Shown one piece after another: positions 11,031-61,281 of a stretch of 64,000 bases of DNA (its first letter is position 1; every line of letters starts with the position of its first letter). Under the pieces are notes generated by a model. It was not told the DNA's origin. It made no database searches and worked only from the letters and a program-made list of their open reading frames with translations. The DNA comes from Natronolimnohabitans innermongolicus JCM 12255 (GTDB lineage Archaea > Halobacteriota > Halobacteria > Halobacteriales > Natrialbaceae). A program made the position numbers and the translations under genes. Location of the stretch: NCBI RefSeq assembly GCF_000337215.1, contig NZ_AOHZ01000086.1, positions 7,791 through 71,790 on the forward strand, written 5' to 3'.

Positions 11031-11150
11031 ATGACACACCGGTACGTTTCGAACGGGACGCTCGAGCCGGAACGTCTACAGCCGCTCGAGCGACGCGACC
11101 GACCGCTCGGAGAACGGGCGAAACGTTCACTCGCCGGGGTCTCGGCATGA
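11031..11150 (+). CDS. Possible 39-residue leaderless ORF coupled to the kinase gene
   Basis: A short ORF beginning MTHRYVSNGTLEPERLQPLE. It starts about 28 nt after a good TATA box, so its ATG would be at or next to the transcript 5' end, and its TGA overlaps the kinase ATG as ATGA. The peptide is basic and polar with no membrane segment or cysteine, unlike the acidic proteins around it. It may be a real small protein or only a ribosome-loading leader that delivers ribosomes to the kinase start. I do not recognise it; the layout is the main evidence. Confidence 0.4.
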   Translation: MTHRYVSNGTLEPERLQPLERRDRPLGERAKRSLAGVSA

Positions 11151-12265
11151 CTCGCACGGACGACTCCGACTACCTCGACCGGCTGATCGACGACGACGCG
11201 CTCCGCCGGTACCTGGAGTCGACCCTCGGCCCCGCGGACGGGCTCGAACTGACGTACCACCGGGAGGGCCAATCGAACGAGACGCTCTTCGTCCGGTGGG
11301 GCGAGCGGGAACTCGTGCTTCGGCGACCGCCCGCCGGCGCGACGGCCGACTCCGCACACGACGTGCTCCGCGAGTATCGCGTCCTCGAGGCCCTGCAGGA
11401 CGCGGACGTGCCGGTCCCGCGGACGGTCGCGGGCTGTGACGATCACGGCGTCCTCGGCGCCGATTTCTACCTGATGGAACGGTGTCGCGGCGACGTGCTC
11501 AGAGACGAGGAGCCCGAACGGTTCGCGCGACCGCGGCGCCGCCGATCGCTGGCGGAGCGGTTTATCGACACGCTCGCCGATATCCACGAGACCGATCCCG
11601 AAGCGGTCGGACTCGGGGAGCTAGGTCACCCCGACGGCTACACCGAACGGCAGATCGATCGGTGGACCGAGCAACTCGAGTGGGCGTTCGAGCGAACGGA
11701 AGCGGAGCGGTCGGTTCCGCTGCTTCGGGAGATCGCCGACTGGCTCGCCGCGAACGTTCCCGAGGCGTACGACCACACGCTGGTCCACGGCGATTACAAG
11801 CTCGACAACGTGATGTTCGCGCCGGACGGCGGTCGCGACGCGTCCTCGGACGAACGGGCGGACGGCGCCAGCGAACGGCCGCCGACGGTCGAAGCCGTCT
11901 TCGACTGGGAGCTCTGTACCCGCGGTGACCCCGCGATGGATCTCGGCTGGATGTTGGTCTACTGGCCCGATCCGGGCGATCCGTCGCTGGAGGACGGACT
12001 GTTGCCCCGGTTTCTGGTTCGGGAGGGGTACCCGACGCGGCGGGAACTCGTCGAGCGATACGAAGCCCTGACCGGCCGCACGTTCGACCACCATCGGTTC
12101 TACCGAACGTTCGGCGTGTTCAAGATGGCCGGCGCCTGCGAGATGATGTACCGCCGGTATCTCGAGGGGAACGCCGACAACGAGTCGTATCCCCTGATGG
12201 AACGGCGGGTTCCGAAACTCGCCGAGCGCGCCGACCGAATTCGGACGGGCGAGGAGCCGCTGTAG
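11147..12265 (+). CDS. APH-fold acyl-CoA-pathway kinase (phosphotransferase family, ACAD10/11 kinase type)
   Basis: A 372-residue kinase of the aminoglycoside-phosphotransferase fold. It has the catalytic loop VHGDYKLDN (His214 to Asn221) and the metal-binding FDWE (Asp253), separated by an insert of roughly 20 acidic residues not seen in its two paralogs in the window. The glycine-rich strand is HREGQSNETLFVRW near residues 38-51. This subfamily sits beside ACADs; the fused mammalian ACAD10/11 kinases and bacterial LvaA phosphorylate 4-hydroxyacyl-CoA. Here it follows the ACAD pair and precedes the thiolase-fold gene by 64 bp. The substrate is inferred from family only. Confidence 0.75.
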   Translation: MTRTDDSDYLDRLIDDDALRRYLESTLGPADGLELTYHREGQSNETLFVRWGERELVLRRPPAGATADSAHDVLREYRVLEALQDADVPVPRTVAGCDDHGVLGADFYLMERCRGDVLRDEEPERFARPRRRRSLAERFIDTLADIHETDPEAVGLGELGHPDGYTERQIDRWTEQLEWAFERTEAERSVPLLREIADWLAANVPEAYDHTLVHGDYKLDNVMFAPDGGRDASSDERADGASERPPTVEAVFDWELCTRGDPAMDLGWMLVYWPDPGDPSLEDGLLPRFLVREGYPTRRELVERYEALTGRTFDHHRFYRTFGVFKMAGACEMMYRRYLEGNADNESYPLMERRVPKLAERADRIRTGEEPL

Positions 12266-12329: not shown

Positions 12330-13502
12330 ATGGAAGCCTCACGAACGCCGATGGTCGCAGGGACGGCACAACTGCCGAACGGAACGTACTCGGTCCCCGA
12401 GCGGGACCTCGCGATGACCGTCGTGCGGGACGTCCTCGACGACGCGGATATCGCGCCGTCGGCCGTCGACGGTCTCTACATGCCGTCGCCGCGACCCTGG
12501 ACGGAGCAGAAGTTCTTTTCGACCGCCATGATCCGCCTGCTCGGTATCGAAGCGGATCGAACGCTCGAGGTGTCGACCGGCGGGACGAGCGGCGGAAAGG
12601 CGTTTCAGGCCGCCGTTCGGGACGTCCAAAGCGGCGCGGTCGACACGGCGCTCGTCTTCGCCGTCGAGCGCAATTCGACGGTCGAAACGACCGGCCCGTA
12701 CTTCGAGTACATCCTGCAGACGTTCGAGTCGGAGTTCGAGTCACCGATCGGGATGTCGATCCCGGGAATCTACGCCCAGAGCATGCAGCGATACTGCCAC
12801 GAGTACGACGTCGATCGCGACGACCTCGCCGAAATCGTCGTCAAAAACCGCGACAACGCGACCGACGATCCGGAGACGCTTTTCGACAGTGCCGTCACGC
12901 GAACGGCGGTGCTCGAGTCGCGGCCGGTCGCGGAGCCGATCCGACTGTTCGAGTGTCCGGCCCCGTGCGACGGCGCCGCGGCGATCGTCGTAACCGCCGA
13001 CCCGGACGTTGCGGCGGCTGTCGACGACCCGGCTACCGTGGCCGGAATCGGCTCGCACCACGCCGCGAGCCACCACCTCGCGTCCCGTCACGGGTCGATG
13101 ACCGAACTCTCGGCCGTTCGCCGCGCCGCGTCCGAGGCGAGCGCGGCGGCCGGTCGCTCGCGCGACGAGATCGACGTCTACGAGCCGTACGCGCCGTTCC
13201 CGCACGTCGAAGCGATCGTCACGGAGGAACTCGGCCTCGTCGACCGGGGCGAGGGCGTCGCCGCCTGTCTCGACGGTCGGACGGCGCCAGACGGCGAATT
13301 TCCGATCAGCCCGTCCGGGGGCTGTCTCGGTCGCGGCCATCCGCCGATGGTGACGCCGCTTCACAACTACGTCCACGCCGTCCGGCAGCTCCGGGGAACG
13401 GCCTCGAGTCAGGTTCCGGACGCGACGACGGTCATGACGACGAGCGAACACGGCCACGTCAACGGCGTGACGGCGACGGTCTTCGAACGGGGTGACCGCT
13501 GA
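12330..13502 (+). CDS. Thiolase-fold protein without nucleophilic Cys (Ltp2-like aldolase candidate)
   Basis: A 390-residue thiolase-superfamily protein. Where thiolases have the acylated Cys, this one reads STGGTSGGKAF (82-92), so it cannot use the usual Claisen mechanism. The region around residues 281-290, DVYEPYAPFPHVE, holds tyrosines, and EHGHVNG near residue 373 keeps the C-terminal His region. It overlaps by one base (TGATG) with a DUF35 protein. In actinobacterial steroid breakdown, Cys-less Ltp2 pairs with a DUF35 domain and acts as a retro-aldolase on a 3-hydroxyacyl-CoA side chain. I infer a similar C-C cleaving role, substrate unknown. Confidence 0.75.
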   Translation: MEASRTPMVAGTAQLPNGTYSVPERDLAMTVVRDVLDDADIAPSAVDGLYMPSPRPWTEQKFFSTAMIRLLGIEADRTLEVSTGGTSGGKAFQAAVRDVQSGAVDTALVFAVERNSTVETTGPYFEYILQTFESEFESPIGMSIPGIYAQSMQRYCHEYDVDRDDLAEIVVKNRDNATDDPETLFDSAVTRTAVLESRPVAEPIRLFECPAPCDGAAAIVVTADPDVAAAVDDPATVAGIGSHHAASHHLASRHGSMTELSAVRRAASEASAAAGRSRDEIDVYEPYAPFPHVEAIVTEELGLVDRGEGVAACLDGRTAPDGEFPISPSGGCLGRGHPPMVTPLHNYVHAVRQLRGTASSQVPDATTVMTTSEHGHVNGVTATVFERGDR

Positions 13503-17679: not shown

Positions 17680-18527
17680 AGGTCACCAAGCACCTCCGAG
17701 ATGTTCGCGTAGTGGTTGAATATCCCGATGAGGATCAGCAGGGCCACGGTGAAGACGACCGAAAGCGCCGCTGCCAGCGGGATGCTGTACGAGAACGACT
17801 GTTCGATGACGTTCGCCATCATGAAGTCGCCGGGACCGCCCAGAATCGCCGGTGCGAGGAACGAACCGGCGGCGAGAATGTAGACGAACAGTGCGCTGGC
17901 GATGACGCCGGACAGGCTCAGCGGGAAGATGACCGTCCGAAGCGTGGACATCGGTCTCGCACCGAGCACTTGCGAGGCGTTGATGAGCTCCTCGTCGATC
18001 GACTGCAGGGAGTTGTATATCGGGAGAATCGCGAACGGCAGTAGCGCGCTCGTGAGCCCGACGATAACGCCGGTCGTCGAGAAGAGAACCCCGAAGTCCG
18101 TTCCGAACGTTTGCTGGACGGGGCCGGTCGGCAGGAAGAACAGCGACACGCCGAAGTACCGGATAATGATCGCGACCCACAGCGGCAGCAGGACGAATCC
18201 GAGCATCAGCATTTGTCGCTTGGCTTTAAAGGCGATGTAGTAGGCGATCCAGTACGCCAGGACGAGACAGACGATGGTCGTTATGAACGCGTACGCCATC
18301 GTTCGGCCGAGGGTTCGGAGGTACGTTCCGCTCAGCGCCGTGCTGTAGTTCTCCAGCAGCGATCCCTCGCCGAAGTTCAGGCTCTCGAAGAGCAAGACGA
18401 CAACTGGAACGATAAAGAAGATCGTCAGCCAGCCGAGGCCGATCGCCATCAGTAGCTTCGCCGTCGATCGATCGCGCAGCATCGACAACGACGGCATCTC
18501 CGGCAGTCGAACGGTCCCGAGATTCAT
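17676..18527 (-). CDS. ABC transporter permease, PotB-like
   Basis: A 283-residue membrane protein with about six helices and the EAA loop ELINASQVLGARPMSTLRTV. An N-terminal extension of some 25 residues precedes the first helix. It overlaps both neighbours by 4 bp, so ATPase and the two permeases are translated as a coupled unit and form the heterodimeric membrane core of the importer. Confidence 0.85.
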   Translation of the reverse strand: MNLGTVRLPEMPSLSMLRDRSTAKLLMAIGLGWLTIFFIVPVVVLLFESLNFGEGSLLENYSTALSGTYLRTLGRTMAYAFITTIVCLVLAYWIAYYIAFKAKRQMLMLGFVLLPLWVAIIIRYFGVSLFFLPTGPVQQTFGTDFGVLFSTTGVIVGLTSALLPFAILPIYNSLQSIDEELINASQVLGARPMSTLRTVIFPLSLSGVIASALFVYILAAGSFLAPAILGGPGDFMMANVIEQSFSYSIPLAAALSVVFTVALLILIGIFNHYANISEVLGDL

Positions 18528-19983: not shown

Positions 19984-20004
19984 TGTAATATGATAGGGTG
20001 TATC

Positions 20005-22006: not shown

Positions 22007-23257
22007 TCACTCGTCGAGTGCGTCCACGCGTCGCTCCTCGTCGAATCGAAGGACGTTCTCGAGTTCTTCCTCTTTGACGTCGTCGAAGGCCCACCGCGCG
22101 ATCGAACGTCGGTGGACCTCGTCGGCGCCGTCGACGATGCGGAACGGCCGGACGTTCTCGTAGAAGTGCGCCAGCGGCAGATCCTTCCCGATCCCGTTCG
22201 CACCGCAACACTGGACCGCGAGGTCGATGATCTCGTTTGTGGCGTTGGCGGTGAAGTTCTTGGCCATCGCGACTTCGATGCGGGCGTCGCTTCGATCGAG
22301 TTCGCGGGCAGCGTGGCGAGACATGGTGCGTGCGGCGTGTAAGCGCGTCTCCGCGTCGGCGATGCGGTGTCGCAGCGCCTGCTTTTCGGACAGCGCCGAG
22401 CCGAACCCTTCGCGCTCGCTAACGTAGGCTTTCGCGATCTCGAGCGAGCGCTGGGCCATCCCGGAGTAGCGCATACAGTGGGTGAGTCGACCGCCGCCCA
22501 GTCGCATCTGCGCAACTTTGAAGCCGGCGCCCTCTTCGCCGACCGTGTTCTCGACGGGAACGCGGACGTTCTCGTACTTCACTTCCGCGTGGCCGCCGGT
22601 CCGGTCGGTGATGCCGTGGCCGCCGAGGTGACCGACGTTTCGAACGACGTTGACGCCGTCCGTATCGGTCGGAACGAGGATGATCGAGGTCCCTTCGTAC
22701 GGGTGGGCGTCGAGGTCGGTTCGAGCCATCACCAGCAGGAAATCCGCGTCGGCGCCGTCGGAGGTCCACCACTTGTGGCCGTTGATCACCCACTCGTCGC
22801 CGTCCTTCTCGGCCGTCGTCTGCAGCATCTTCGGATCCGAGCCGCCGCCACCCATCGGTTCGGTCATCGAGAACGCCGAGGAGATTTCGCCCTGGACGAG
22901 CGGTCGAAGCCACTCCTCTTTCTGCTCTTCGGTGCCGACCATCTCCAAGGTGTGCATGTTCCCCTCGTGCGGCGCGTTCGCCCGAATCGAGAGCGCGCCG
23001 ATGAGCGACCGTCCGACCTGCTCGAACGACGGCAGCATGTCCTGGAAGTCCAGTCCCTGTCCGCCGTACTCCGTCGGCATCTGCGGCGCGAAGAGGTCGC
23101 GCTCTTTCGCCATCTCCCACAGCTCTTCGATCTCGTCTTGGGTGATGTTCTCGCCGGTTCGGAGCGCTTCCCGCTCGCGCGGGATCACTTCTTCGTCCAT
23201 GAACGATTCGACGCGCGAAGCTACCTCTTGGGCCGTCTCGGAGTCGTGGTACTCCAT
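22007..23257 (-). CDS. Acyl-CoA dehydrogenase of the ACAD10/11 (LvaC-like) type
   Basis: A 416-residue ACAD. The C-terminal motif is IVDGADEVHRR (374-384) instead of YEGTxxIQ, and helix G reads RLGGGRLTHCMRYSG (252-266). Both closely resemble the DGPDEVH and RLGPGRIHHCMR signatures I associate with the ACAD domain of ACAD10/11. Those enzymes, and bacterial LvaC, act on 4-phosphoacyl-CoA made by an APH-fold kinase, eliminating phosphate rather than simply oxidising. It lies between an LLM oxidoreductase and a Glu-less crotonase; kinases of the right type are at 26800, 30960 and 11147. Phospho-substrate use is inference from motifs. Confidence 0.8.
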   Translation of the reverse strand: MEYHDSETAQEVASRVESFMDEEVIPREREALRTGENITQDEIEELWEMAKERDLFAPQMPTEYGGQGLDFQDMLPSFEQVGRSLIGALSIRANAPHEGNMHTLEMVGTEEQKEEWLRPLVQGEISSAFSMTEPMGGGGSDPKMLQTTAEKDGDEWVINGHKWWTSDGADADFLLVMARTDLDAHPYEGTSIILVPTDTDGVNVVRNVGHLGGHGITDRTGGHAEVKYENVRVPVENTVGEEGAGFKVAQMRLGGGRLTHCMRYSGMAQRSLEIAKAYVSEREGFGSALSEKQALRHRIADAETRLHAARTMSRHAARELDRSDARIEVAMAKNFTANATNEIIDLAVQCCGANGIGKDLPLAHFYENVRPFRIVDGADEVHRRSIARWAFDDVKEEELENVLRFDEERRVDALDE

Positions 23258-25854: not shown

Positions 25855-26774
25855 ATGGACTTCAGCGAACCGGACGAAGCCACGCGTCTCAAATCGGCGC
25901 TAGCGGAGTTCATCGAAACGGAGATACGGCCGCTCGAGGACGAACACGAGCGCTTTTTCGACCCGGATTCGGAACGAGAGATCTTCGACGACGGGTTTAG
26001 ACAGGTCCCCGAGTATCTCGAGTTGAAAGCGACGATTCGCAAACGCGCCGCCGAGGCCGGGTTCTGGGGGCTGAACATGCCGGAGTCCGTCGGCGGCCGG
26101 GGCGTCAGCGCGCTCACCGATGCCATCGTGGCCGAATACCTGGCCGATGACCCGCCCGGACTCCACACCTACGCGGTCCGGGGTGCCGGCGCGGACCGAC
26201 GCCGATTTTGCTCAACTGCGACGAACGGCAGCGCGAACGTTACCTCGAGCCGCTCATGGCCGGGGAGAAGACGACGTGTTTCGCGCTGAGCGAACCCGAC
26301 GCCGGCAGCGATCCGCAGTTCATGGAGACGACGGCCGAGACGGACGGCGACGAGTGGGTGATCGACGGCCGGAAGTCGTGGATCAGCAACGCGCCGTACG
26401 CCGACTTCGCGATGGTGTTCGCCCGGACGAGCGGCGAGCCGGGACGGATCGGCGGAATCTCGTGTTTCCTCGTCGAGACGGACGCGCCGGGAGTCGGTCG
26501 GCGACATCCACCGGCCGATGGGTCACGCCTGGGTCGCCCCGGCCGAACTGGAGTTCGATGGGTGTCGAGTCGGCGAGGAGGCGCTTCTGGGAGACGAAGG
26601 CACGGGATTCTATCAGGCGATGGAGTGGACGGAAACGCGCGATTGGGCGTCGCCGCCGGCTACTCGCGACGGGAGCCGATCGAAACGCGGTATCGGACCA
26701 CTCGCGAGAAACGGCTCACGGAGGGATCGGACGAGATGCAGAAACAGACGATCGTTCGCGAACTTCGCGAGTGA
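25855..26774 (+). pseudogene. Acyl-CoA dehydrogenase pseudogene (two frameshifts and an internal deletion)
   Basis: The gene opens as a normal ACAD (MDFSEPDEATRLKSALAEF). Near 26193-26200 the frame shifts; restoring one C in gaccgacg would give ADPTPILLN and rejoin the next frame. That frame runs through ALSEPDAGSD and WVIDGRKSWISN, then shifts again near 26490-26500, where removing one G restores VGDIHRPMGHAWVAPAE. After EALLGDEGTGFYQAM the sequence jumps directly to the final ACAD motif RLTEGSDEMQKQTIVRE. Total length is 920 bp against about 1,200 for the family, so roughly 300 bp of the C-terminal helical domain is missing. The canonical EGS Glu was present in the ancestor. It converges with the kinase gene. 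Confidence 0.85.
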
Positions 26775-26799: not shown

Positions 26800-27867
26800 T
26801 CAGTCCTCGCCGTCGATAATGCGCAGCGCTTCTCGAGCCAGTTCCGGGACTCGCTCCTCCATGAGCGGATAGTGGTCGTCGTCGGCGTTGCCCTCGAGGT
26901 GGCGTCGGAAGAACATCTCGCCGATGCCGCCCAGCTTGTAGTAGGCCAACGCCCGGTAGAATCGGTCGTTCTCGAAGGCGTAGCCGGTCGCTTGTTCGTA
27001 CCGCTCGATGAGCTCCGACCGCGTGTGATAGCCCTCTCGCAGCAGGTATTCGGCATCGCCGGCGGTACCGACTTTCGTCGTCGCGTCGTCCTCGTCGGGC
27101 CAGTAGGAGAGGTACCAGCCCAGATCGGTAAACGGGTCGCCGATCGTCGACATCTCCCAGTCGAGGACGGCGATGATCTCCGGCGGCGCCTCGGGCCCGA
27201 ACATCACGTTGTCGAGTTTGTAATCGCCGTGGACGAGCGTGTGCGGATGATCCGACGGGACGTTCGCTTGCAGCCACTCGGTTAGCTCGTGTACTTCGGG
27301 GATCTCGCGTGCTTCGGCCGTTACCTCGAACGCCCACTCGTACTGCTGTTCCCACCGGTCGACCTGCCGCTGCGTGAATCCGTCCGGGCGACCGAACTCC
27401 TCGAGTCCGACCGCTTCGTAGTCGACGGTGTGAATCGCAGCGAGCGTGTCGACCATCTCGGTGCCGAGTTGCGTTCGGTCCGCCGGCGAATCGAACTGGT
27501 CGGGTTCTCCGTCGCGGATGACGATGCCGTCTAGCTTCTCCATCACGTAGAACTCCGATCCGATAACGTCCTCGTTCTCGGTCGCGACGACCGTCGTCGG
27601 GACGGGGACGTCGGTCTCCTGGAGCGCCTCGAGGACGGTGTACTCGCGGATCACGTCGTGTGCCGTATCGGCCGTCTCACCCGGCGGCGGACGGCGGACG
27701 ACGAGGTCGTGATCGTCCCACGTTACGAAGAGCGTCTCGTTCGAGTGTCCGCCCGGATGGCGGTCGACCTCGAAGACGTCGGCCGGACCGAGGTGGTCGG
27801 TCAGAAACGCCTCGAGGGAATCGAGATCGACGAGTCGGTCGAAGTAGTCGGTCTGTTCGTCGGACAT
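26800..27867 (-). CDS. APH-fold acyl-CoA-pathway kinase (ACAD10/11 kinase type)
   Basis: A 355-residue kinase with glycine-rich strand HPGGHSNETLFVTW (37-50), catalytic loop VHGDYKLDN (His213 to Asn220) and metal-binding LDWEM (Asp236). It is closely related to the kinase at 11147 (shared REYTVLEALQ, DVPVP and FGRPDGFTQRQVDRW-type segments) but lacks its acidic insert. Start: the ATG at 27867 is preferred over 27891 because a GGAG stretch precedes it and a TATA-like element (top strand 27904-27910) would start transcription between the two. It lies between a broken ACAD and an intact divergent ACAD. Confidence 0.78.
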   Translation of the reverse strand: MSDEQTDYFDRLVDLDSLEAFLTDHLGPADVFEVDRHPGGHSNETLFVTWDDHDLVVRRPPPGETADTAHDVIREYTVLEALQETDVPVPTTVVATENEDVIGSEFYVMEKLDGIVIRDGEPDQFDSPADRTQLGTEMVDTLAAIHTVDYEAVGLEEFGRPDGFTQRQVDRWEQQYEWAFEVTAEAREIPEVHELTEWLQANVPSDHPHTLVHGDYKLDNVMFGPEAPPEIIAVLDWEMSTIGDPFTDLGWYLSYWPDEDDATTKVGTAGDAEYLLREGYHTRSELIERYEQATGYAFENDRFYRALAYYKLGGIGEMFFRRHLEGNADDDHYPLMEERVPELAREALRIIDGED

Positions 27868-27981
27868 CTTGGGTAGCTCCGGTTGTCTCATTCAGGTACA
27901 CCCTTAAAATCTCTCGTGTCCGCCGCCCGGGCTTCCTCGAGTATCGACCCGAGTCGGCCGTCGGAAACCGGAGCGGAGGGT

Positions 27982-28015: not shown

Positions 28016-29263
28016 ATGGATATCAGTCCATCCGAAGAGCTACAATCATACCTAGACGAGCTCGACGAATTTATCGACGACGAGATCAAGCCGCTCGAGG
28101 AAGAACACGAGCAGTACTTCGACAAGCGCCGCGAGCACGCACGCACCGACTGGGAGTCGGGCGGCGAACCGGACGAAGAGTGGGTCGAGCTCCTTCAGGA
28201 GATGCGAGAGCGCGCCGACGAGGCGGGGTTCTTCCGGTTTGCCCTCCCCGAGGAGGTCGGCGGCGACGACGGATCGAACTTCGCGATGGCGGTGATCCGA
28301 GAGCACCTGGCCCACAAGGGACTCGGCCTGCACAACGTCCTCCAGAACGAGGCGTCGGTCGTCGGTAACACCGTCTTTCCCCAGATCCTGCTCCGATTCG
28401 GCACCGAGGAGCAACAGGAGATGATCGAGGACGTCATCACCGGCGAAACCGGGGTCGCCTTCGGGCTCACCGAACCCGACCACGGCAGCGACGCGACGTG
28501 GATGGATACGACCGCCGAGAAAGACGGCGACGAGTGGATCATCAACGGCGCGAAGCGCTGGAACAGCGGGATGCACGCCGCGGAGTACGACCTCGTGTTC
28601 GCTCGGACCAGCGGCGAGGACGGCGACGCCGACGGCATCACGGCGTTTCTGGTGCCGACGGACACCGATGGTTTCGACGTCGACTACTTCTGGTGGACGT
28701 TCAACATGCCGACCGACCACGCGGAAGTGTCGATCGACGACGCCCGCGTCCCCGACTCGGCGATCCTCGGCGAGGAGGGACAGGGGCTGCACATCGCGCA
28801 GTTTTTCGTTCACGAAAACCGCATCCGGCAGGCCGCGGCGAGTCTCGGCGCCGCGCAGTTCTGCATCGACGAGGCCGTCGACTACGCGAACGAGCGGGAG
28901 ACGTGGGGCAAACCGCTCTCGACGCGCCAGGCCATCCAGTTCCCGCTCGCGGAGTTGCACACGGAAGCGGAGATGCTCCGTAACACGATCCGCAAGACGG
29001 CTCGTCTCCTGGACGACGAGGGCGAGATGGTAACCGAATCGGACTCCTCGATCAGCCAACTCGTCGCGATGTGTAACTACAAGGCCAACGACCTCGTCTG
29101 CCGGGCGGCCGACCGCGCGATGCAGGTCCACGGCGGCGTCGGGTACAGCCGACACAAGCCCTTCGAGCACATCTATCGCCACCACCGCCGGTACCGCATC
29201 ACGGAGGGCTCCGAAGAGATCCAGAAGCGTCGCGTCGCCGGCCACCTCTTCGATTTCATCTGA
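28016..29263 (+). CDS. Acyl-CoA dehydrogenase, canonical EGS type
   Basis: A 415-residue ACAD with FAD motif TEPDHGSDATW and the canonical C-terminal catalytic motif ITEGSEEIQKR near residue 400, so the usual base is present. The N-terminal domain is longer than in MCAD and very acidic. Its start resembles the ancestor of the pseudogene at 25855 (both have an EIKPLEEEHE / EIRPLEDEHE segment). It is divergent from the kinase at 27867 and convergent with the ligase at 29303. Likely alpha,beta-desaturation of an acyl-CoA. Confidence 0.9.
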   Translation: MDISPSEELQSYLDELDEFIDDEIKPLEEEHEQYFDKRREHARTDWESGGEPDEEWVELLQEMRERADEAGFFRFALPEEVGGDDGSNFAMAVIREHLAHKGLGLHNVLQNEASVVGNTVFPQILLRFGTEEQQEMIEDVITGETGVAFGLTEPDHGSDATWMDTTAEKDGDEWIINGAKRWNSGMHAAEYDLVFARTSGEDGDADGITAFLVPTDTDGFDVDYFWWTFNMPTDHAEVSIDDARVPDSAILGEEGQGLHIAQFFVHENRIRQAAASLGAAQFCIDEAVDYANERETWGKPLSTRQAIQFPLAELHTEAEMLRNTIRKTARLLDDEGEMVTESDSSISQLVAMCNYKANDLVCRAADRAMQVHGGVGYSRHKPFEHIYRHHRRYRITEGSEEIQKRRVAGHLFDFI

Positions 29264-29302: not shown

Positions 29303-30832
29303 CTACGCGAGTTCCGATTTGAGCACTTTCCCGGTCGGGTTCCGCGGCAGTTCCGAGCGGAACTCGATCTCTCGAGGCGTCTTGTAGCCGGCGATCCGTT
29401 CCTCGACGTGCGAGGCGACCTCCTCGGCGTCGAGGTCGGTCGCGTCGGCTCCGGGGACGACGACCGCCTTGACCCGTTCGCCCCACGTCTCGTCGGGGAC
29501 GCCGACCACCGCGACCTCGTCGACGTCGGGATGCTCGTGGATGACCTCCTCCACTTCGGCCGGGTGGACGTTCTCGCCGCCGGAGACGATCATGTCGTCC
29601 GCTCGGCCGACGAAGTAGACGAACCCCTCCTCGTCACGTCTGATGAGGTCGTCCGAGACGAACCAGCCGTCCTCGTCGAACGCCTCGTCGGTCTTCTCCG
29701 GCATGTCGTGGTAGCCGTCGAACACCGTCGGCCCCTTGTACGCCGCGCGACCGATTTCGCCGCGGGGAACCCGGTTTCCGTTTTCGTCGACGACTTTCAT
29801 CCGGAGGGACAGCGCCGGTCGGCCCACGCTCTCTGCCTTCTCGAGCGTCCGCTCGGGCGGGAGTCGGGTCGCCAGCGCCTCCGTCTGGCCGAAACTTTCG
29901 ACGAGGTCCGTCTCGAAGGTCTCGATGAGTTCGCGTTTGAGTTCCGCACCCGACGGCGCGGCGCCGGTGCCGTAGCTCTCGAGCGCCGAGAGGTCGTACT
30001 CGTCGACGTCGTCGACGGACAGGAGCATTCGGCTCTGGGTTGGCACGAAGTACGTGGAGTTGATCGACTCCTCCTCGAGCAGGGTCAGGACGCGCTCCGG
30101 ATCGAAGCCGTCGGTGACGACCGTCGTTCCGCCGGCGTAGAGGTTCGTGATGAACGGAACGAACGCGCCGACGTGAAACAGCGGCGTGACGATCAGGTGA
30201 CGGTTGCCGGGCTCGAGGTGGTCGCCCTCGTAGACGCCGTCGGCCGCGAGCGTCAGCAGGTTGTCGTGCGTGAACCGACACCCCTTCGGGCGACCCGTCG
30301 TCCCGCTCGTGTACATGAGCGCGGCCTGATCGCTGCGGTCGGGAACGACGTCGACGGCGTCGTCGGACGCGCTCTCGAGGAACGCCTCGTACGAGTCGGC
30401 GAACGCCGGGGGGTCCTCGCCAACGTAGAGAAACGTTTCGACGGGAACGAGCGGATCGTCGTGAATCTCCTCGACCGTGTCGGCCCCGAACCCGTCGACT
30501 ACCGCGACCTCGGGGCCGCTGTCGTCGAGGACGTATCGCACTTCCTGGCCCTTGAACCGGTGGTTCACCGGGACCGGGCGCGCGCCGAGAATCATCGCGC
30601 CGACGAAACACTCGAGCGTTTCGACGTTGTTCTTCATGTACAGCGCGACCGTGTCGCCGGCCTCGACGCCGAGATCGGCGAGGCCGTTCGCGACGCGGTT
30701 TACTCGTCGCTCGAATTCGGCGTACGTGCTCTCCGCGACTCGTTGCCCGCCGGATCGGTGAACGGTCGCTTCCCGATCCGGGTGCTTCCACGCGTTGCGC
30801 CGTACCAGGTGGCCGACAGTCTGCCCTCCCAT
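29303..30832 (-). CDS. AMP-forming acyl-CoA ligase (LvaE-like position)
   Basis: A 509-residue ANL ligase with P-loop MYTSGTTGRPKG, adenylate motif ESFGQTEAL, hinge GRADDMIVSGGENV and C-terminal PRNPTGKVLK. It is the third gene of a minus-strand run: DUF6285-like small protein (32485), kinase (32036), ligase (30832). The gap between kinase stop and ligase start is 127 bp, so it may be co-transcribed. Bacterial levulinate clusters have the same combination (kinase LvaA, small partner LvaB, CoA ligase LvaE). The closest paralog in the window is the ligase at 44267. Confidence 0.9.
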   Translation of the reverse strand: MGGQTVGHLVRRNAWKHPDREATVHRSGGQRVAESTYAEFERRVNRVANGLADLGVEAGDTVALYMKNNVETLECFVGAMILGARPVPVNHRFKGQEVRYVLDDSGPEVAVVDGFGADTVEEIHDDPLVPVETFLYVGEDPPAFADSYEAFLESASDDAVDVVPDRSDQAALMYTSGTTGRPKGCRFTHDNLLTLAADGVYEGDHLEPGNRHLIVTPLFHVGAFVPFITNLYAGGTTVVTDGFDPERVLTLLEEESINSTYFVPTQSRMLLSVDDVDEYDLSALESYGTGAAPSGAELKRELIETFETDLVESFGQTEALATRLPPERTLEKAESVGRPALSLRMKVVDENGNRVPRGEIGRAAYKGPTVFDGYHDMPEKTDEAFDEDGWFVSDDLIRRDEEGFVYFVGRADDMIVSGGENVHPAEVEEVIHEHPDVDEVAVVGVPDETWGERVKAVVVPGADATDLDAEEVASHVEERIAGYKTPREIEFRSELPRNPTGKVLKSELA

Positions 30833-30959
30833 ATGCCATCAATTGACACGCTTCGGGATAGCTGTTGTCCTTCGACAGGTTCGGTGCGGGACGAACTCGT
30901 CCGGTCGGGAGACTGAGGACGAATCATCGACGAACTGGTGTCTGCGAAAGCCGTCGCCG

Positions 30960-32036
30960 TCAGGTTCGATCGGCTTCGATCAGGTCCAGCATGTCCTCGA
31001 TCAGTCCGGGGACGATGTACTGGAACCACGCGGTTCGGACGTCGTCGCTCTCGCCGGTGTGGTACCGGTAGGCGCCGTTGACGCCGCTGTTCATCATTCG
31101 GAACGCGCCGAACACCCGCCAGTAGCGCAGCCGTTCAGGATCGACCGTTCGCCCGGTTCGCTTCTCGTACTCGTCGTAGAACCACTCGCGATCGACGAGC
31201 GACCCCGCCAGGTTCGGCCGTTCGATCGGATCGACGAGCTTCCCCGCGAAGTACTTCAGCGAGCAGTACGCCAGATCGAACATCGGGTCGCTGATCGCCG
31301 ACATCTCCCAGTCGAGCACGGCGGAGACCGACTCCTCGTGGAGCAACATGTTTCCGACGCGCAGATCGCCGTGAACGAGCGTCGTTTCGGGAACCTCGGG
31401 CTTGTTCGCCTCGAGCCACCTGATGATCTCGTTTACCGCCGGCTCGTCGACGAGGTTCATCTCCTCGAAACTGCGCCGCTGTAGGTCGAGCGTCTCGTCG
31501 ACGACCGTCTGTGGATCCTTCGCCTCGAGGCAGGGCACGTCGTCGCCGTCGAGTTCGTGGATGTTCGCGATGACGTCGACGAACTGGTTCGGCAGGGGCT
31601 TGCCCTCGCGGTCCCAGGAGTCGTACAGCGACTGCCGGTCGCGGGGGTTCCAGGTGACCGGGGCCGTGCCCGGCCGGTGGCTAACCAGGAAGAACGGACC
31701 GCCGAGCACCGACTGATCGGCTTCGAACCAGTAGGTCTCCGGAACGGGGACGTCGACGTCGGCTTCGTCCACCGCTTGCATCGTCTCGAACTCGGTCTGG
31801 ATATCGTTGCGGTAGTCGAACGTTCGCTCCTCGCCGTAGCTGGGATCGACGCGCGCGACGAGTCGCTCCGATCGTTCGGTGCCGCCGTCGGTCCAGCTGG
31901 CCGTAAACGACATCGTCTGCCGGGACCACCCCTCCGTGTGCCGCTCGAGGTCGGTCACCGTCACGTCGCCGTCGGCCAACCGTCCCGAGAGGTACGGCGC
32001 GAGTTCGCCCGTGATGTCGTCGATCTCGAGCGTCAT
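30960..32036 (-). CDS. APH-fold kinase, LvaA-like
   Basis: A 358-residue kinase with catalytic loop VHGDLRVGN (His222 to Asn229) and metal-binding LDWEM (Asp242). It is more distant from the other two kinases (HGDLRVGN instead of HGDYKLDN). Its start overlaps by 4 bp the stop of a 150-residue small protein, a tightly coupled pair. In Pseudomonas the LvaA kinase needs the small neighbour LvaB to phosphorylate 4-hydroxyvaleryl-CoA; the pairing and the adjacent CoA ligase make that the best model. The biochemical assignment is inference. Confidence 0.75.
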   Translation of the reverse strand: MTLEIDDITGELAPYLSGRLADGDVTVTDLERHTEGWSRQTMSFTASWTDGGTERSERLVARVDPSYGEERTFDYRNDIQTEFETMQAVDEADVDVPVPETYWFEADQSVLGGPFFLVSHRPGTAPVTWNPRDRQSLYDSWDREGKPLPNQFVDVIANIHELDGDDVPCLEAKDPQTVVDETLDLQRRSFEEMNLVDEPAVNEIIRWLEANKPEVPETTLVHGDLRVGNMLLHEESVSAVLDWEMSAISDPMFDLAYCSLKYFAGKLVDPIERPNLAGSLVDREWFYDEYEKRTGRTVDPERLRYWRVFGAFRMMNSGVNGAYRYHTGESDDVRTAWFQYIVPGLIEDMLDLIEADRT

Positions 32037-32485
32037 GTCCGATCACGTCCGAGCATCTCGAGTTGTCCCTCTACGCGGACCCGCAGGTAGTCGTACAGCG
32101 GCTCCCGTGCCGCTCTGGCCGCGTCGCCCTCGAGTTCCGCATCGATCGTCTCGAGAACGTCGTTGCACGCCGAGACGAGGACGGTCTCGAGTTCGTTACT
32201 GTTGGCCGACGCGTTCTCGATCCGGTCGCGAGCGTCCGCGGCCGACTCGACGACGGCCGTCTCGTCGCAGCGTCCGTCGACGGCCTCGAGTCCCTCGAGC
32301 AGCGACGCTCGCTGTCGGCTCGTCACCTCGTCTCTGTGACGCAACTCCTGGGAGAGATACCGCATCGTACTCGACATCGATCCCACCTGTCCGTCGACGA
32401 ACTCGTCGTCGATCTCCGCCCTGACGTCCTCCTGGAGAAACGATGCGAACTGCTCGAGGACCTGCGCCGGCTGTAGGTGTGGCAT
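32033..32485 (-). CDS. Small kinase-partner protein (DUF6285-like, LvaB-like position)
   Basis: A 150-residue, soluble, mostly helical acidic protein. The N-terminal pattern QPAQVLEQFASFLQEDV, followed by a middle TMRYLSQELRHR segment, resembles the DUF6285 proteins that I recall sitting next to APH-fold kinases. The start at 32485 is chosen over a GTG six bases upstream because a TATA box is centred about 27 nt away. Its stop overlaps the kinase start by 4 bp, so equimolar production is expected. Proposed role: stabilising or activating subunit of the kinase. Confidence 0.65.
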   Translation of the reverse strand: MPHLQPAQVLEQFASFLQEDVRAEIDDEFVDGQVGSMSSTMRYLSQELRHRDEVTSRQRASLLEGLEAVDGRCDETAVVESAADARDRIENASANSNELETVLVSACNDVLETIDAELEGDAARAAREPLYDYLRVRVEGQLEMLGRDRT

Positions 32486-32507
32486 TATCACTCACAATCG
32501 ATTGGAA

Positions 32508-32664: not shown

Positions 32665-33735
32665 ATGGCAGGCGATACCAATAGCCAATCGACGCGTCGA
32701 CAGGTACTACAGACGAGCGGAGCGGTAGTGGGGGTCGGCATCGCAGGCTGTGTCGGCGGAAGCGACGACGACACGCTCAGCTACATTAGCCGCGGTGGAA
32801 TCACACAGGACGCCGAGCGAGAGTTGATGGCCGAGTGGTCCGAGGAAAGCGGGATCGACGTGACCCACCAGGAAGTCGCGGACGACACCGAGATGGTCGA
32901 ACTCATCGCAGCCAATCCGAACGAGTTCGACTTCACGAATCCGGTCTCGTGGGCGTTCGAACTCAACCGACTCGAGCACGACGAAGAACTCTTCGCGGAG
33001 ATCGACCTCGATCAGGTGCCGAACTACGACAACGTCGCCGACAACTGGCAGTCCGCACCGCTCGTCGAGGACAACCCCTACGGGATTTTTTATTACATCT
33101 CGACTCAAGGGTTGATCTACAACACCGAACACGCCGACGTCTCGTCGTGGGACGATATCAAAGACGACGAGTACGACGGGCAAGTGACGCTCCAGAACAG
33201 CGCCGTTTCGCGGTTCGGCAACTCGTGTGCGAGTCTCGGATACGACATCACGGAGGCCGCAAACGACGACGACCTCTACGAAGACGCCATCGCGGAGATG
33301 GAAGAACAGCACCAGAACGTCTTCACCTACTGGACCGCCGGCGACGAGTTCATGCGCTTGCTCCGGGAAGAGCAAGCCGCCGTTTCGGAGGGCTGGGGCG
33401 GCCGAGCCGAAAACCTCCAGGAGGACGGCCAGCCGGTCGAGTACGTCATTCCGGAAGAGGGCTGTATCACGTGGTCGACCGCGTTCGTCGTCGTCGAAGA
33501 GAGCGACATGAAAGAGGAAGTCTACGACCTCCTCAATTTCATCTACGAACGCGACAACGCCGTCGAACTGACCCAGGCCCACAAGTATCCCATTCCGCTC
33601 GAGGACCCGCCCGACGAGATCACCGAGCGCGCCGAGTACACGGAGGATCCGGACGATCTCGTCTGGATCGACTGGTCCGATATCGTTCCGTTACAGCAGG
33701 ATCTAGAGCAGCGACACAACGAAATTCAGAGTTGA
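32665..33735 (+). CDS. Tat-exported lipoprotein solute-binding protein, PotD-like (orphan)
   Basis: A 356-residue paralog with Tat motif TRRQVLQTS (10-18) and lipobox Cys29 (VGIAGC). Conserved mature segments are YISRGGITQDAERE, EFMRLLREEQAA and PIPLEDPPDEITE. An AT-rich gattaatg (32631-32638) is about 30 nt before the ATG. It is divergent from the kinase-partner operon with 179 bp between starts, so a shared inducer is plausible. No adjacent permease. Its position suggests it captures the substrate of the kinase/ligase pathway. Confidence 0.87.
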   Translation: MAGDTNSQSTRRQVLQTSGAVVGVGIAGCVGGSDDDTLSYISRGGITQDAERELMAEWSEESGIDVTHQEVADDTEMVELIAANPNEFDFTNPVSWAFELNRLEHDEELFAEIDLDQVPNYDNVADNWQSAPLVEDNPYGIFYYISTQGLIYNTEHADVSSWDDIKDDEYDGQVTLQNSAVSRFGNSCASLGYDITEAANDDDLYEDAIAEMEEQHQNVFTYWTAGDEFMRLLREEQAAVSEGWGGRAENLQEDGQPVEYVIPEEGCITWSTAFVVVEESDMKEEVYDLLNFIYERDNAVELTQAHKYPIPLEDPPDEITERAEYTEDPDDLVWIDWSDIVPLQQDLEQRHNEIQS

Positions 33736-33778: not shown

Positions 33779-34552
33779 TTACTCCTCGAGTCGCGGAACG
33801 CCTTTTATCGTCACCGTTTCGCCGACGATGTACGACGACGCCGGACTGGCGAGGAACTGCGCGAGATCGGCGACCTCTTCGGGGCGCCCGATCGTCCGGT
33901 CGGCTCTCGCCCGATCGATTGCGTCGGCATCGTCGTCGATCCCCATCTGCGTCCGGACTCCTTCGGTGGCGACGAGCCCGGGTGCGATACAGTTGACCCA
34001 GACGTCGTCTTCCGCCCAGTCGGCCGCGACCGAGGTCGTGTAGTTGATGACGCCCGCCTTCGCCGCGCCGTAGTGGCTCATGTTCTGTGAGCCCCGCTGG
34101 CCGGCGACGCTTGCGACGTTGACGATGTGGCCGCCGCCGGACTCTCGCATCTTCTCGTAGGCGACCTGCGAGCAGTGGAACGTTCCGTGGAGATTGATGT
34201 CGACGATCGTCTTCCAGCCGTTCTCGCTGATCTCGGCCGCCGGCGCCTGAAAACTCGCGCCGGCGTTGTTGACGAGAATATCGAGCCCGCCGAACTCGTC
34301 GACGGTCGTCTCCACGAGGTCCTCGACGGCGGCCCGATCCGTCACGTCGCACTCGACGGCGAGCGCCTCGCCGGGGGCGTCGCCCTCGTTGATCCCGTCG
34401 GCGACCGGTTCGACGTTGGCCGCCTCCCGCGAGGTGACGACGACGTTCGCACCGTCCTCGGCGAACCGTTCGACGATTGCCTTTCCGATCCCGCTCGAGG
34501 ATCCCGTGACGACGGCGGTCTTCCCGTCGACGCTGAACTGCGAGAGCGTCAT
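33779..34552 (-). CDS. SDR-family 3-oxoacyl-CoA/ACP-type reductase or hydroxyacyl-CoA dehydrogenase
   Basis: A 257-residue short-chain dehydrogenase. It has nucleotide motif TGSSSGIG (17-24), NNAG (95-98) and catalytic Ser148, Tyr161, Lys165 (SHYGAAKAG). The frame is open far upstream, but the ATG at 34552 gives the normal SDR N-terminus. It converges with the binding protein at 32665. In levulinate clusters an SDR (LvaD) reduces levulinyl-CoA to the 4-hydroxy ester; here that role, or ordinary 3-hydroxyacyl-CoA dehydrogenase, is possible. Confidence 0.85.
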   Translation of the reverse strand: MTLSQFSVDGKTAVVTGSSSGIGKAIVERFAEDGANVVVTSREAANVEPVADGINEGDAPGEALAVECDVTDRAAVEDLVETTVDEFGGLDILVNNAGASFQAPAAEISENGWKTIVDINLHGTFHCSQVAYEKMRESGGGHIVNVASVAGQRGSQNMSHYGAAKAGVINYTTSVAADWAEDDVWVNCIAPGLVATEGVRTQMGIDDDADAIDRARADRTIGRPEEVADLAQFLASPASSYIVGETVTIKGVPRLEE

Positions 34553-47928: not shown

Positions 47929-47951
47929 GATAACATATGGTGCCTCTCCCC

Positions 47952-49107
47952 ATGGCTGATATTGACAATCAACAGTCAGTAACGCGGCGACAGCTGCTAG
48001 GAACCGGCGCAGTAGCATGCGGGATTGCGGTGACCGGTTGCGTCGGCGGGAGCGGTGATTCGATCGCCTATATTAGCCGCGGTGGTGCCACGCACGACGC
48101 AGAACGGGAGGTGATGGCCGAGTGGTCCGAGGAGTCCGATATCGAGGTGACACACCAGGAAGTCGCGGACGATACCGAGATGCTCGAACTCATCGACGCG
48201 AACCCCGAGGAGTTCGATTTCACGAACCCCGTCCCCGCAGCGTTTGCCCAGCACAGCCTGTTGTACGACGAGGAACTGTTCACCGAGATCGATTTCGGCG
48301 AAATTCCGAACTATAGTAGTCAGTGAAACGATTTACACACCGATCGCGACGTCGCCCTGCGATCGGGTGTGCATTGACTTTCACTGACTACTATACGACA
48401 ACATCAAGGACTCCTGGCAGGAGGCGCCGTTTCTCCAGGGCCACGACTACGGGGCGTTCTACTACAACAACTCCCAGGGGATCGCGTACAACACCGAACA
48501 CGCGGAGCCGACCTCGTGGGAGGATATCAAAGATCCGGAGCACGAGGGGTAACTCACGCTCCACGACAACGCTCTCGCACGGTTCGCGAACACCTGCGCG
48601 CAACTCGGTCTCGACCCGGGCGAAGCGGCCACCGACGAGGCGTTGTTCGACGAGGTGTTCGACGAGATGGCGGAGCTACACGAGAACGTCTTCACGTACT
48701 GGGTCGCCGGCGACGAGTGGATGCGATTGCTTCGGGAAGAACAGGCACACCTCGTCGAGGGGTGGGGCGGTCGAACTGAAACGCTCATGGAGGACGGAAA
48801 TCCCGTCGATTACGTCATCCTGGAGGAAGGCTGTCTCACCTACGCCACCGGATTCGCAATCGTCGACGAAAGCGACATGAAAGAGGAGGTGTACGACCTG
48901 CTCAACTTCATCTACGAACGAGAGAACGCCGTCAGCCTGTCGCTCGGCCACAACTACCCGGTGCAACTCGAGGGTCCGCCCGAAGAGATCACCGAGCGGT
49001 TCGATTACGTCGAAAGCCCCGACGACGTCGTCTGGTTCAACTGGGAAGAAATCCTCCCGATACAGGACGAAATCGAGGGACGGTTCGATCAGATCAAATC
49101 GTTATAG
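47952..49107 (+). pseudogene. PotD-like Tat lipoprotein binding-protein pseudogene, interrupted by a MITE and a nonsense codon
   Basis: The 5' part encodes Tat motif TRRQLLGTG (11-19), lipobox Cys30 (IAVTGC) and the family block YISRGGATHDAERE. At PNY the coding sequence is interrupted by the 80-bp MITE (48314-48393) plus a TA duplication; 82 extra bp shift the frame and the MITE supplies an early stop. Beyond it the family sequence resumes one frame over (DNIKDSWQEAPFLQGHDYG) and meets a TAA at 48550-48552 where paralogs have Gln (EYEGQ, EYDGQ), a probable C-to-T change. The rest, to 49107, is otherwise well preserved, so both lesions are recent. No functional protein is expected. Confidence 0.9.
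48314..48393. mobile_element. 80-bp MITE inserted in the binding-protein gene
   Basis: Perfect 15-bp inverted ends tagtagtcagtgaaa (48314-48328) and tttcactgactacta (48379-48393), flanked by a TA duplication (48312-48313 and 48394-48395). Removing element plus one TA restores the codons for PNYDN, so the empty site can be reconstructed exactly. TA duplication is typical of IS630/Tc1-mariner-type transposition, a family-level inference. Confidence 0.9.
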
Positions 49108-59701: not shown

Positions 59702-60109
59702 CTACTCCCGCGGGACGAAGACGGGAACCGCGGCGTCGGCGTCCTCGACCGCCTTGAACCGAACCGTGACGCGAGTCCCGATCTCGACGTCCTCGGGGTC
59801 GCACTCGAGGTTCGTCATCACCCGCGGCCCCTCCTCGAGTTCGACGTACGCGAGGACGAGCGGCAGGTCCTCTTCGGGCCAGCCGCTCATCGACTGCGTC
59901 GCGGAGTACGAGTAAACGGTTCCCTCTCCGGACGCTTCCTTCCACTCGACGTCGTCGCTGAAGCAGTCGGGACAGAGCGCTCGCGGGTAGTGGTAGACGA
60001 GACCGCAGTCCGTGCACTCGCGGACGAGCAACGTGCCGTCGGCGGCGGCCGACCAGTACCGCTCCGTCTCCGGCGTGATCTCCGGCGTCGGTCGCGGCTC
60101 CCAGCTCAT
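59702..60109 (-). CDS. DUF35 Zn-ribbon / OB-fold protein
   Basis: A 135-residue protein with zinc ribbon Cys32, Cys35, Cys46, Cys49 and OB domain (GEGTVYSYSATQ and VTVRFKAVED). Its start overlaps by 4 bp the stop of the upstream thiolase-fold gene, with which it should form a complex. It converges with the MmgE/PrpD gene. The N-terminus has a Pro/Thr-rich extension absent in the DUF35 protein at 13502. Confidence 0.85.
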   Translation of the reverse strand: MSWEPRPTPEITPETERYWSAAADGTLLVRECTDCGLVYHYPRALCPDCFSDDVEWKEASGEGTVYSYSATQSMSGWPEEDLPLVLAYVELEEGPRVMTNLECDPEDVEIGTRVTVRFKAVEDADAAVPVFVPRE

Positions 60110-61281
60110 CGGTCCTCACCTCCGAGGACGACGGTTGCCGCCCCGTGGCGGGTGCCGATGCTGCCGCCGGTCCCGTGTGCGAGCGCCAGGTCGGCGTCGA
60201 CCTGTACCTCTTCGTTGGCCTCCCCGCGAAGTTGTCGAACGGCTTCGATGACCTTCGTCATCCCGCCGCGGTTCGCGGGGTGGTTCGAACACAGGCCGCC
60301 GCCGTCCGTGTTGAACGGCAGGTCTCCGTTCGGCGCTTTGAGCGCGCCGTTTTCGACGAACGTCCCGCCCTCGCCCTTCTCGCAGAAGCCGAGGTCCTCG
60401 ATCGCCTCGAGGACGGTGATCGTAAACGAGTCGTAGACCGACGCGTAGTCGACGTGTTCGGGGCCGACGCCGGCCTCCTCGAACGCGCGTGTCCCGGACT
60501 GCTCCGCGGCGGTTCGCGTGAGGTCGATTCGACCCGCTCGGTGGTGTCCGACCGCCTCGCCGTGGCCGAGCACTTCGACGCACTCGCGCTCGAGTCGCGA
60601 TCGAACGTCCTCCGAGACGACGAGTACCGCCCCGCCGCCGTCGGAGATCACACAGCAGTCGAGCAGGTGCAGCGGGTCGGAAACGACGCGCGACTCGACG
60701 ACGTCGTCGACCGTCACCGGCTCCTGGAACATCGCGTCTTCGTTGTACTGGGCGTGGTGTGACGCGGCGACGCGGATCTCGGCCAACTGCTCCGGCGTCG
60801 TCCCGTGTTCGTGCATGTGCCGCTTGGCGGCCATGCCGTACATGCCGATGTTCGTCGCGCCGTAAATCCGCTCGAAACTGTCCTGTGCCGATCGAATGCT
60901 CCGGGCGCCGGAGCCGGTCGCCTGTCCGCGCGACCGGGGTCGGCCGGCGAGGGTGATCAGCGCGACGTCGCACTTGCCGTCGCGGATCGCGCTCACGGCG
61001 TGACCGACGTGACTGATGTACGAAGAGCCGCCGTAGTCCGTCGTGTCGGCGTACGAAACCTCGAGGCCGAGGTAATCGGCCATGATGAGCGGCGACAGGC
61101 CGCTCTCGTACTCCGGGACGCCGGCGGTGAAGTACGCGTCGACGTCGTCCTTTGCGAGTCCGGCGTCGGCGAGCGCGCCGCGTGCGACCTCCGCGTGTAA
61201 CTGCATCGTCGATTTCTCCGGTGCTTCTCGCGTCGGGTGCTCGTAGGCACCTGCGATGTAGGCTGACGACTGTGCTGCCAT
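60106..61281 (-). CDS. Thiolase-fold protein without nucleophilic Cys (lipid-transfer/Ltp type)
   Basis: A 391-residue protein where the acyl-Cys segment reads DYGGSSYISHVGHAV (82-96), with Ser instead of Cys. Conserved Tyr occurs in VYDSFTITVLEAIEDLGF, and the C-terminal His region is TRHGAATVV (His379). It is coupled by 4 bp to a DUF35 gene. The absence of Cys together with a DUF35 partner points to an Ltp2-like aldolase or a CoA-binding scaffold rather than a thiolase. An AT-rich minus-strand catttaggt (top 61302-61310) about 25 nt upstream is a candidate TATA. Confidence 0.78.
   Translation of the reverse strand: MAAQSSAYIAGAYEHPTREAPEKSTMQLHAEVARGALADAGLAKDDVDAYFTAGVPEYESGLSPLIMADYLGLEVSYADTTDYGGSSYISHVGHAVSAIRDGKCDVALITLAGRPRSRGQATGSGARSIRSAQDSFERIYGATNIGMYGMAAKRHMHEHGTTPEQLAEIRVAASHHAQYNEDAMFQEPVTVDDVVESRVVSDPLHLLDCCVISDGGGAVLVVSEDVRSRLERECVEVLGHGEAVGHHRAGRIDLTRTAAEQSGTRAFEEAGVGPEHVDYASVYDSFTITVLEAIEDLGFCEKGEGGTFVENGALKAPNGDLPFNTDGGGLCSNHPANRGGMTKVIEAVRQLRGEANEEVQVDADLALAHGTGGSIGTRHGAATVVLGGEDR

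Follow-up and report, generated by a model that had tools for sequence, protein, structure and literature searches.

Hydroxyl removal by means of a kinase, prior to beta-oxidation, is known in bacteria and mammals, and archaea are unmentioned in the papers found. The ACAD11 kinase phosphorylates an alcohol before elimination (PMC12440821, PMC11342911), and the HCMR motif together with a catalytic Asp sets ACAD10/11 and LvaC apart (PMC12440821). In Pseudomonas, LvaB is required for the analogous kinase step, according to a paper which cites Rand 2017 (PMC6692424). The 25-hydroxysteroid kinase (25-HSK) phosphorylates a tertiary steroid alcohol, the lyase performing the subsequent elimination not being known in 2021 (PMC8449060). 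A search of the literature on haloarchaeal use of levulinate, LvaA or steroid side chains found nothing.

The DNA analysed is a stretch of 64,000 nucleotides from Natronolimnohabitans innermongolicus JCM 12255, referred to here as the window. A preliminary description had placed in it a same-strand trio of small protein, APH kinase and AMP-forming ligase, which the open reading frames and the Pfam matches bear out, as the sequence does the overlap of exactly 4 bp (ATGA) and the two kinase motifs (Table 1). The SDR genes listed at 33779 and 37742 are likewise present, and the divergent solute-binding protein at 32665 is of the SBP_bac_8 type. The start of the small protein was set at a conserved MP[YH]L, a longer open reading frame beginning with GTG at 32491. 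The kinase gene is separated by 127 bp from the downstream ligase gene, which converges, across a gap of 39 bp, with an acyl-CoA dehydrogenase gene on the opposite strand. This dehydrogenase was omitted from the earlier list, as were two further APH kinases (26800-27891 and 11147-12265).

Table 1. Features of the kinase locus and of the related dehydrogenase and kinase genes (positions in the window)
Feature	Position	Strand	Basis or remarks
Small all-helical protein, candidate kinase partner	32033-32485	-	150 aa, no named family
APH-fold small-molecule kinase	30960-32036	-	358 aa; Pfam APH 1.2e-28
Kinase motif HGDLRVGN	31350-31373		
Kinase motif LDWE	31305-31316		
ATGA overlap of small-protein and kinase genes, 4 bp	32033-32036	-	sequence read; translational coupling
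AMP-forming acyl-CoA ligase	29303-30832	-	Pfam AMP-binding 4.4e-80
Dedicated acyl-CoA dehydrogenase	28016-29263	+	415 aa; active-site alignment; ortholog distribution
Second APH kinase, ACAD10/11 type	26800-27891	-	HGDYKLDN; phmmer vs ACAD11 kinase domain 2.4e-51
LvaC/ACAD10/11-type acyl-CoA dehydrogenase	22007-23257	-	HCMR 22469-22480; Asp 22130-22132

Orthologs of the small protein occur in 11 of 394 haloarchaeal genomes, belonging to 7 genera, and those of the kinase (580-670 bits) in the identical 11, where they adjoin the small-protein orthologs in every case; the next-best kinase in any of the 394 genomes reached at most 142 bits, fragments of one broken copy aside. The dehydrogenase at 28016 has its orthologs in the same 11 genomes. 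The 11 carrier genomes are related to differing degrees, but this identical and patchy distribution is strong evidence that the small protein, the kinase and the dehydrogenase form one functional unit, and the three are a strict haloarchaeal triad whose co-occurrence is beyond chance. Moreover, an overlap of 4-8 bp between the genes of the small protein and the kinase is seen at 12 of the 13 loci measured. Neighbourhoods were counted over 16 distinct loci: an ortholog of the 28016 dehydrogenase (68-96%) lies near the pair in 14, the two others being a locus on a truncated contig (L031) and a second copy in one genome (L092); a ligase ortholog (53-87% identity) also in 14; a kinase of the 26800 type in 7; and a dehydrogenase of the 22007 type in 5, all from one syntenic group. 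In one of the 11 genomes, a decayed second copy (L028/L029, G259:C2:418641-420143) has both the small-protein and the kinase genes broken, beside a partial dehydrogenase. The closest syntenic locus among named genomes is that of Salinadaptatus halalkaliphilus (L030).

The reading that we favour, with a probability of about one half, is that of a haloarchaeal catabolic module that removes hydroxyl groups by way of a kinase assisted by a partner protein, and so feeds beta-oxidation. The gene set, the strict co-occurrence, the gene overlap and the family motifs are direct observations, from which we infer the binding of the small protein to the kinase, the order of the steps, a hydroxyl-bearing substrate and the elimination. 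In such a module, the ligase would make the CoA thioester of the putative hydroxyl-bearing acid, and the small helical protein would hold and activate the APH-fold kinase, which would phosphorylate the hydroxyl of the CoA-bound acid. The phosphate would then be eliminated, allowing the acyl-CoA to enter beta-oxidation, and the 28016 dehydrogenase would act on either the phosphorylated intermediate or the product. Most likely, the triad works as LvaA-LvaB do, the kinase readying a hydroxyl for elimination, without membership of those families by the tests run. In support, the nearest solved kinases include enzymes which phosphorylate alcohols ahead of elimination, namely 25-HSK (9fsg) and the ACAD11 kinase. 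As regards the substrate, the neighbouring genes are as compatible with a branched, alicyclic or isoprenoid acid as with a 4-hydroxy acid, and the levulinate or 4-hydroxy acids previously put forward for the kinase and small-protein pair are a guess to which no observation points in particular.

The kinase has the APH fold, the catalytic Asp and the DWE of LvaA-type enzymes. In trees built with and without solved structures, whose deep branches are weakly supported, it belongs to a haloarchaeal clade of its own (support 100/100), and neither the LvaA clade of DUF6285-linked kinases (100/99) nor that of the ACAD10/11 type (100/99) includes it. Among solved structures, its nearest relatives are Rv3168, 9o56, 25-HSK and 3dxp, the sequence matches to Rv3168, 25-HSK and 9o56 being about equal (77-79 bits each), and the best structural matches are 25-HSK (9fsg) and Rv3168. 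The structure model of the kinase is of low confidence (pLDDT 60). An RxGN following HGD/HRD is common to the kinases linked to small proteins (the LvaA set, Sulfitobacter, QY30, L046 and the haloarchaeal 30960 family), at a place where ACAD11-type kinases carry [KR]L[DN]N. Since RxGN is found in 25-HSK and Rv3168 too, for neither of which the sources consulted report a partner protein, this motif is no proof of partner dependence.

These relatives also bear on a different and rather unlikely route, by which the kinase would phosphorylate a free, possibly tertiary, terpenoid- or sterol-like alcohol before CoA ligation, elimination being left to a lyase. The best structural matches, the N-lobe GxSxxT...W pattern and the RxGN shared with 25-HSK and Rv3168, as well as the side-chain-cleavage-like genes of the region (thiolase with ChsH2-like OB/zinc proteins, an overlapping dehydrogenase pair and F420-dependent LLM enzymes), are consistent with it. 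Nevertheless, the near-equal distance to Rv3168, 25-HSK and 9o56 comes with no supported grouping with 25-HSK, which instead joins Rv3168 (100/100) on a branch that leaves out the haloarchaeal kinases; 25-HSK has Trp-Gly-Asp where the haloarchaeal family has His-Gly-Asp; and an acyl-CoA ligase and a dehydrogenase are near-constant neighbours of the pair.

All the lva-linked dehydrogenases collected carry both HCMR and the catalytic Asp. The 28016 dehydrogenase has RIRQ in place of HCMR and the canonical Glu (residue 397) in place of Asp, and so do all its aligned orthologs. Because it keeps this ordinary Glu base, the strict triad is without an identified phosphate-eliminating enzyme. A bolder and unlikely reading would make the triad a second kind of partner-dependent alcohol kinase system, whose kinase would need an unnamed helical partner with no kinship to LvaB, or only an ancient one, and whose RIRQ/Glu dehydrogenase would itself be a novel lyase that eliminates phosphate and is built on the ACAD scaffold. 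If true, this dehydrogenase would be the kind of enzyme reported missing for 25-HSK.

The dehydrogenase at 22007 was correctly described as being of the ACAD10/11 type: it has HCMR and the catalytic Asp, as in LvaC, and ACAD11 is among its best solved matches. Its proposed role as the LvaC of the pair is not sustained, as it lies near the pair in just those 5 loci and the pair has a dehydrogenase of its own, with Glu and without HCMR. A conserved partnership between the 22007 dehydrogenase and the 30960 kinase was also considered and rejected; homologs of the former are found in 200 of the 394 genomes. The kinase at 26800 clusters, together with that at 11147, with ACAD11, 3dxp and 9o56 (100/99), and its homologs adjoin LvaC-type dehydrogenases at other loci. 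In Haloferax mediterranei, a 22007-type dehydrogenase, a 26800-type kinase and a HAD protein are grouped, the same three domains that occur in ACAD10. In at least 28 genomes, by a comparison of the kinase and dehydrogenase coordinate lists made by eye, an APH kinase lies within 500 bp of a 22007-type dehydrogenase with no small protein. The 26800 kinase is thus the probable partner of the 22007 dehydrogenase, which probably belongs to a module separate from the triad. The two make up another kinase-ACAD system, which runs parallel to the triad within this gene region, and a better candidate than the triad for haloarchaeal 4-hydroxyacyl-CoA catabolism. This pairing is apparently undescribed in the literature found.

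The small protein of the window matched no Pfam or NCBIfam family. It had been called DUF6285-like, a label that did not survive: the Pfam model (PF19802), which gave 75.8 bits with a Thermus protein as positive control, has no match in the window protein or in those haloarchaeal homologs that were scanned, and its search against 21 related genomes gave no match. The AlphaFold2 model is all-helical (mean pLDDT 84.7), and a fold search with it returned nothing below E 0.5, as expected of a helical bundle; a search of solved structures with the small family and with a real LvaB gave no match. For profile comparison, twelve DUF6285 proteins from plasmid records were used as the reference set, including the annotated LvaB of a complete lva operon (L059). 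By hhalign, the haloarchaeal family aligned to this set with P 0.008 (0.018 with a trimmed alignment), the N-terminal helix being in register, and to the Sulfitobacter/QY30 small proteins with P 0.001, while these aligned to DUF6285 with P 0.001-0.002. All three comparisons exceeded 300 column-shuffled controls; against 500 natural, unrelated protein pieces, some members stand out and most single members do not exceed them. On these profiles, a distant homology between the small family and DUF6285 is possible, being strongest through the Sulfitobacter type. What the small protein shares with LvaB is a gene beside, and overlapping, that of an APH kinase.

In this context, the lva-like set originally proposed holds in part: a kinase tightly coupled to a small helical partner near acyl-CoA chemistry, and an LvaC-type dehydrogenase at 22007, are there, but the small protein is not DUF6285 and the LvaA clade does not include the kinase. 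That archaea run a full LvaABCDE pathway on levulinate or 4-hydroxyacyl-CoA, in which the small protein would take the part of LvaB, the kinase that of LvaA and the 22007 dehydrogenase that of LvaC, is quite improbable. The LvaC signature at 22007, the presence of every gene type within about 16 kb and the faint profile similarity to DUF6285 would agree with it; set against them are the unmatched DUF6285 model, the position of the kinase in the trees, an LvaC-type dehydrogenase missing near the pair in 11 of the 16 loci and found elsewhere beside a different kinase (26800 type), and a pair beside which no lva-type transporter or regulator was seen, compared with the complete operon of L059. 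Finally, a kinase target outside catabolism (antibiotic, sugar or coenzyme), with the small protein as a stabiliser, is very improbable: the APH family does include resistance and sugar kinases, but the pair is co-inherited exclusively with an acyl-CoA dehydrogenase and frequently linked to a ligase, and the best relatives of the kinase are acyl-CoA- or sterol-linked.

Several other features of the region were recorded. Between 8454 and 13903, two overlapping acyl-CoA dehydrogenases are accompanied by the third APH kinase, of ACAD11 type (11147-12265), by a thiolase at 12330 and, at 13502, by a zinc/OB protein similar to ChsH2, a gene set resembling that of steroid side-chain degradation; a second ChsH2-like protein overlaps a thiolase-like gene by 4 bp at 59702-61281. 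An acyl-CoA dehydrogenase at 25855-26774 is split across two reading frames, the syntenic gene of S. halalkaliphilus (L030:15467-16669) being intact. Five similar solute-binding proteins are encoded at 19990, 24617, 32665 (SBP_bac_8/PotD type), 38622 and 47937-49107, the last apparently broken into two open reading frames, and an ABC ATPase at 18524. F420-dependent luciferase-like oxidoreductases are found at 5401, 23348 and 41946 (TIGR03619-like, TIGR03617 and TIGR04024), and an ortholog of the TIGR03617 type accompanies the triad at seven loci other than that of the window (L030, L032, L033, L035, L094, L095 and L096). In Rhodococcus opacus (L046:4496-5125), a kinase overlaps another unnamed small protein, and the small proteins that accompany APH kinases may form a broad group that has yet to be classified.

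Two versions of kinase-dependent chemistry thus lie side by side in the window: the ACAD10/11-type pair, which is widespread, and the triad, which is rare and has a small partner protein to itself. The triad offers a clean test of whether kinase partner proteins arose more than once, and also of whether ordinary active-site residues allow a dehydrogenase to work on a phosphorylated substrate.

In comparison with the bacterial lva operon, the locus has the same translational coupling between an APH-fold kinase and a small protein, and the same neighbouring gene types (acyl-CoA dehydrogenase, ligase and SDR). It differs in the small protein (LvaB being a DUF6285 protein of about 115-135 aa, that described here a non-DUF6285 protein of 150 aa), in the separate kinase clades, in a triad dehydrogenase without HCMR/Asp and in a triad locus without an LvaF/G-type transporter. 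The gene order is small protein-kinase here, the reverse of lvaA-lvaB. With ACAD10 and ACAD11, the mammalian kinase-ACAD fusions, the common ground is the logic of phosphorylation plus ACAD, and the proteins at 22007 and 26800 closely match the respective domains, whereas the 30960 kinase is distant (RxGN, not [KR]LDN) and the 28016 dehydrogenase of another type. The 25-HSK of Sterolibacterium denitrificans and Rv3168 are the closest solved folds to the 30960 kinase, sharing the GxSxxT N-lobe and RxGN; 25-HSK differs in having WGD for HGD in the active site and in acting on steroid tertiary alcohols, with no partner protein reported in the literature consulted on it. In Sulfitobacter alexandrii (L038), a related kinase, a 157 aa hypothetical protein, a ligase and a dehydrogenase are directly together, and it is with this small protein that the haloarchaeal small family reaches its highest profile score, although kinase identity is about 30%, the order is kinase-small protein and the dehydrogenase is LvaC-type (HCMR).
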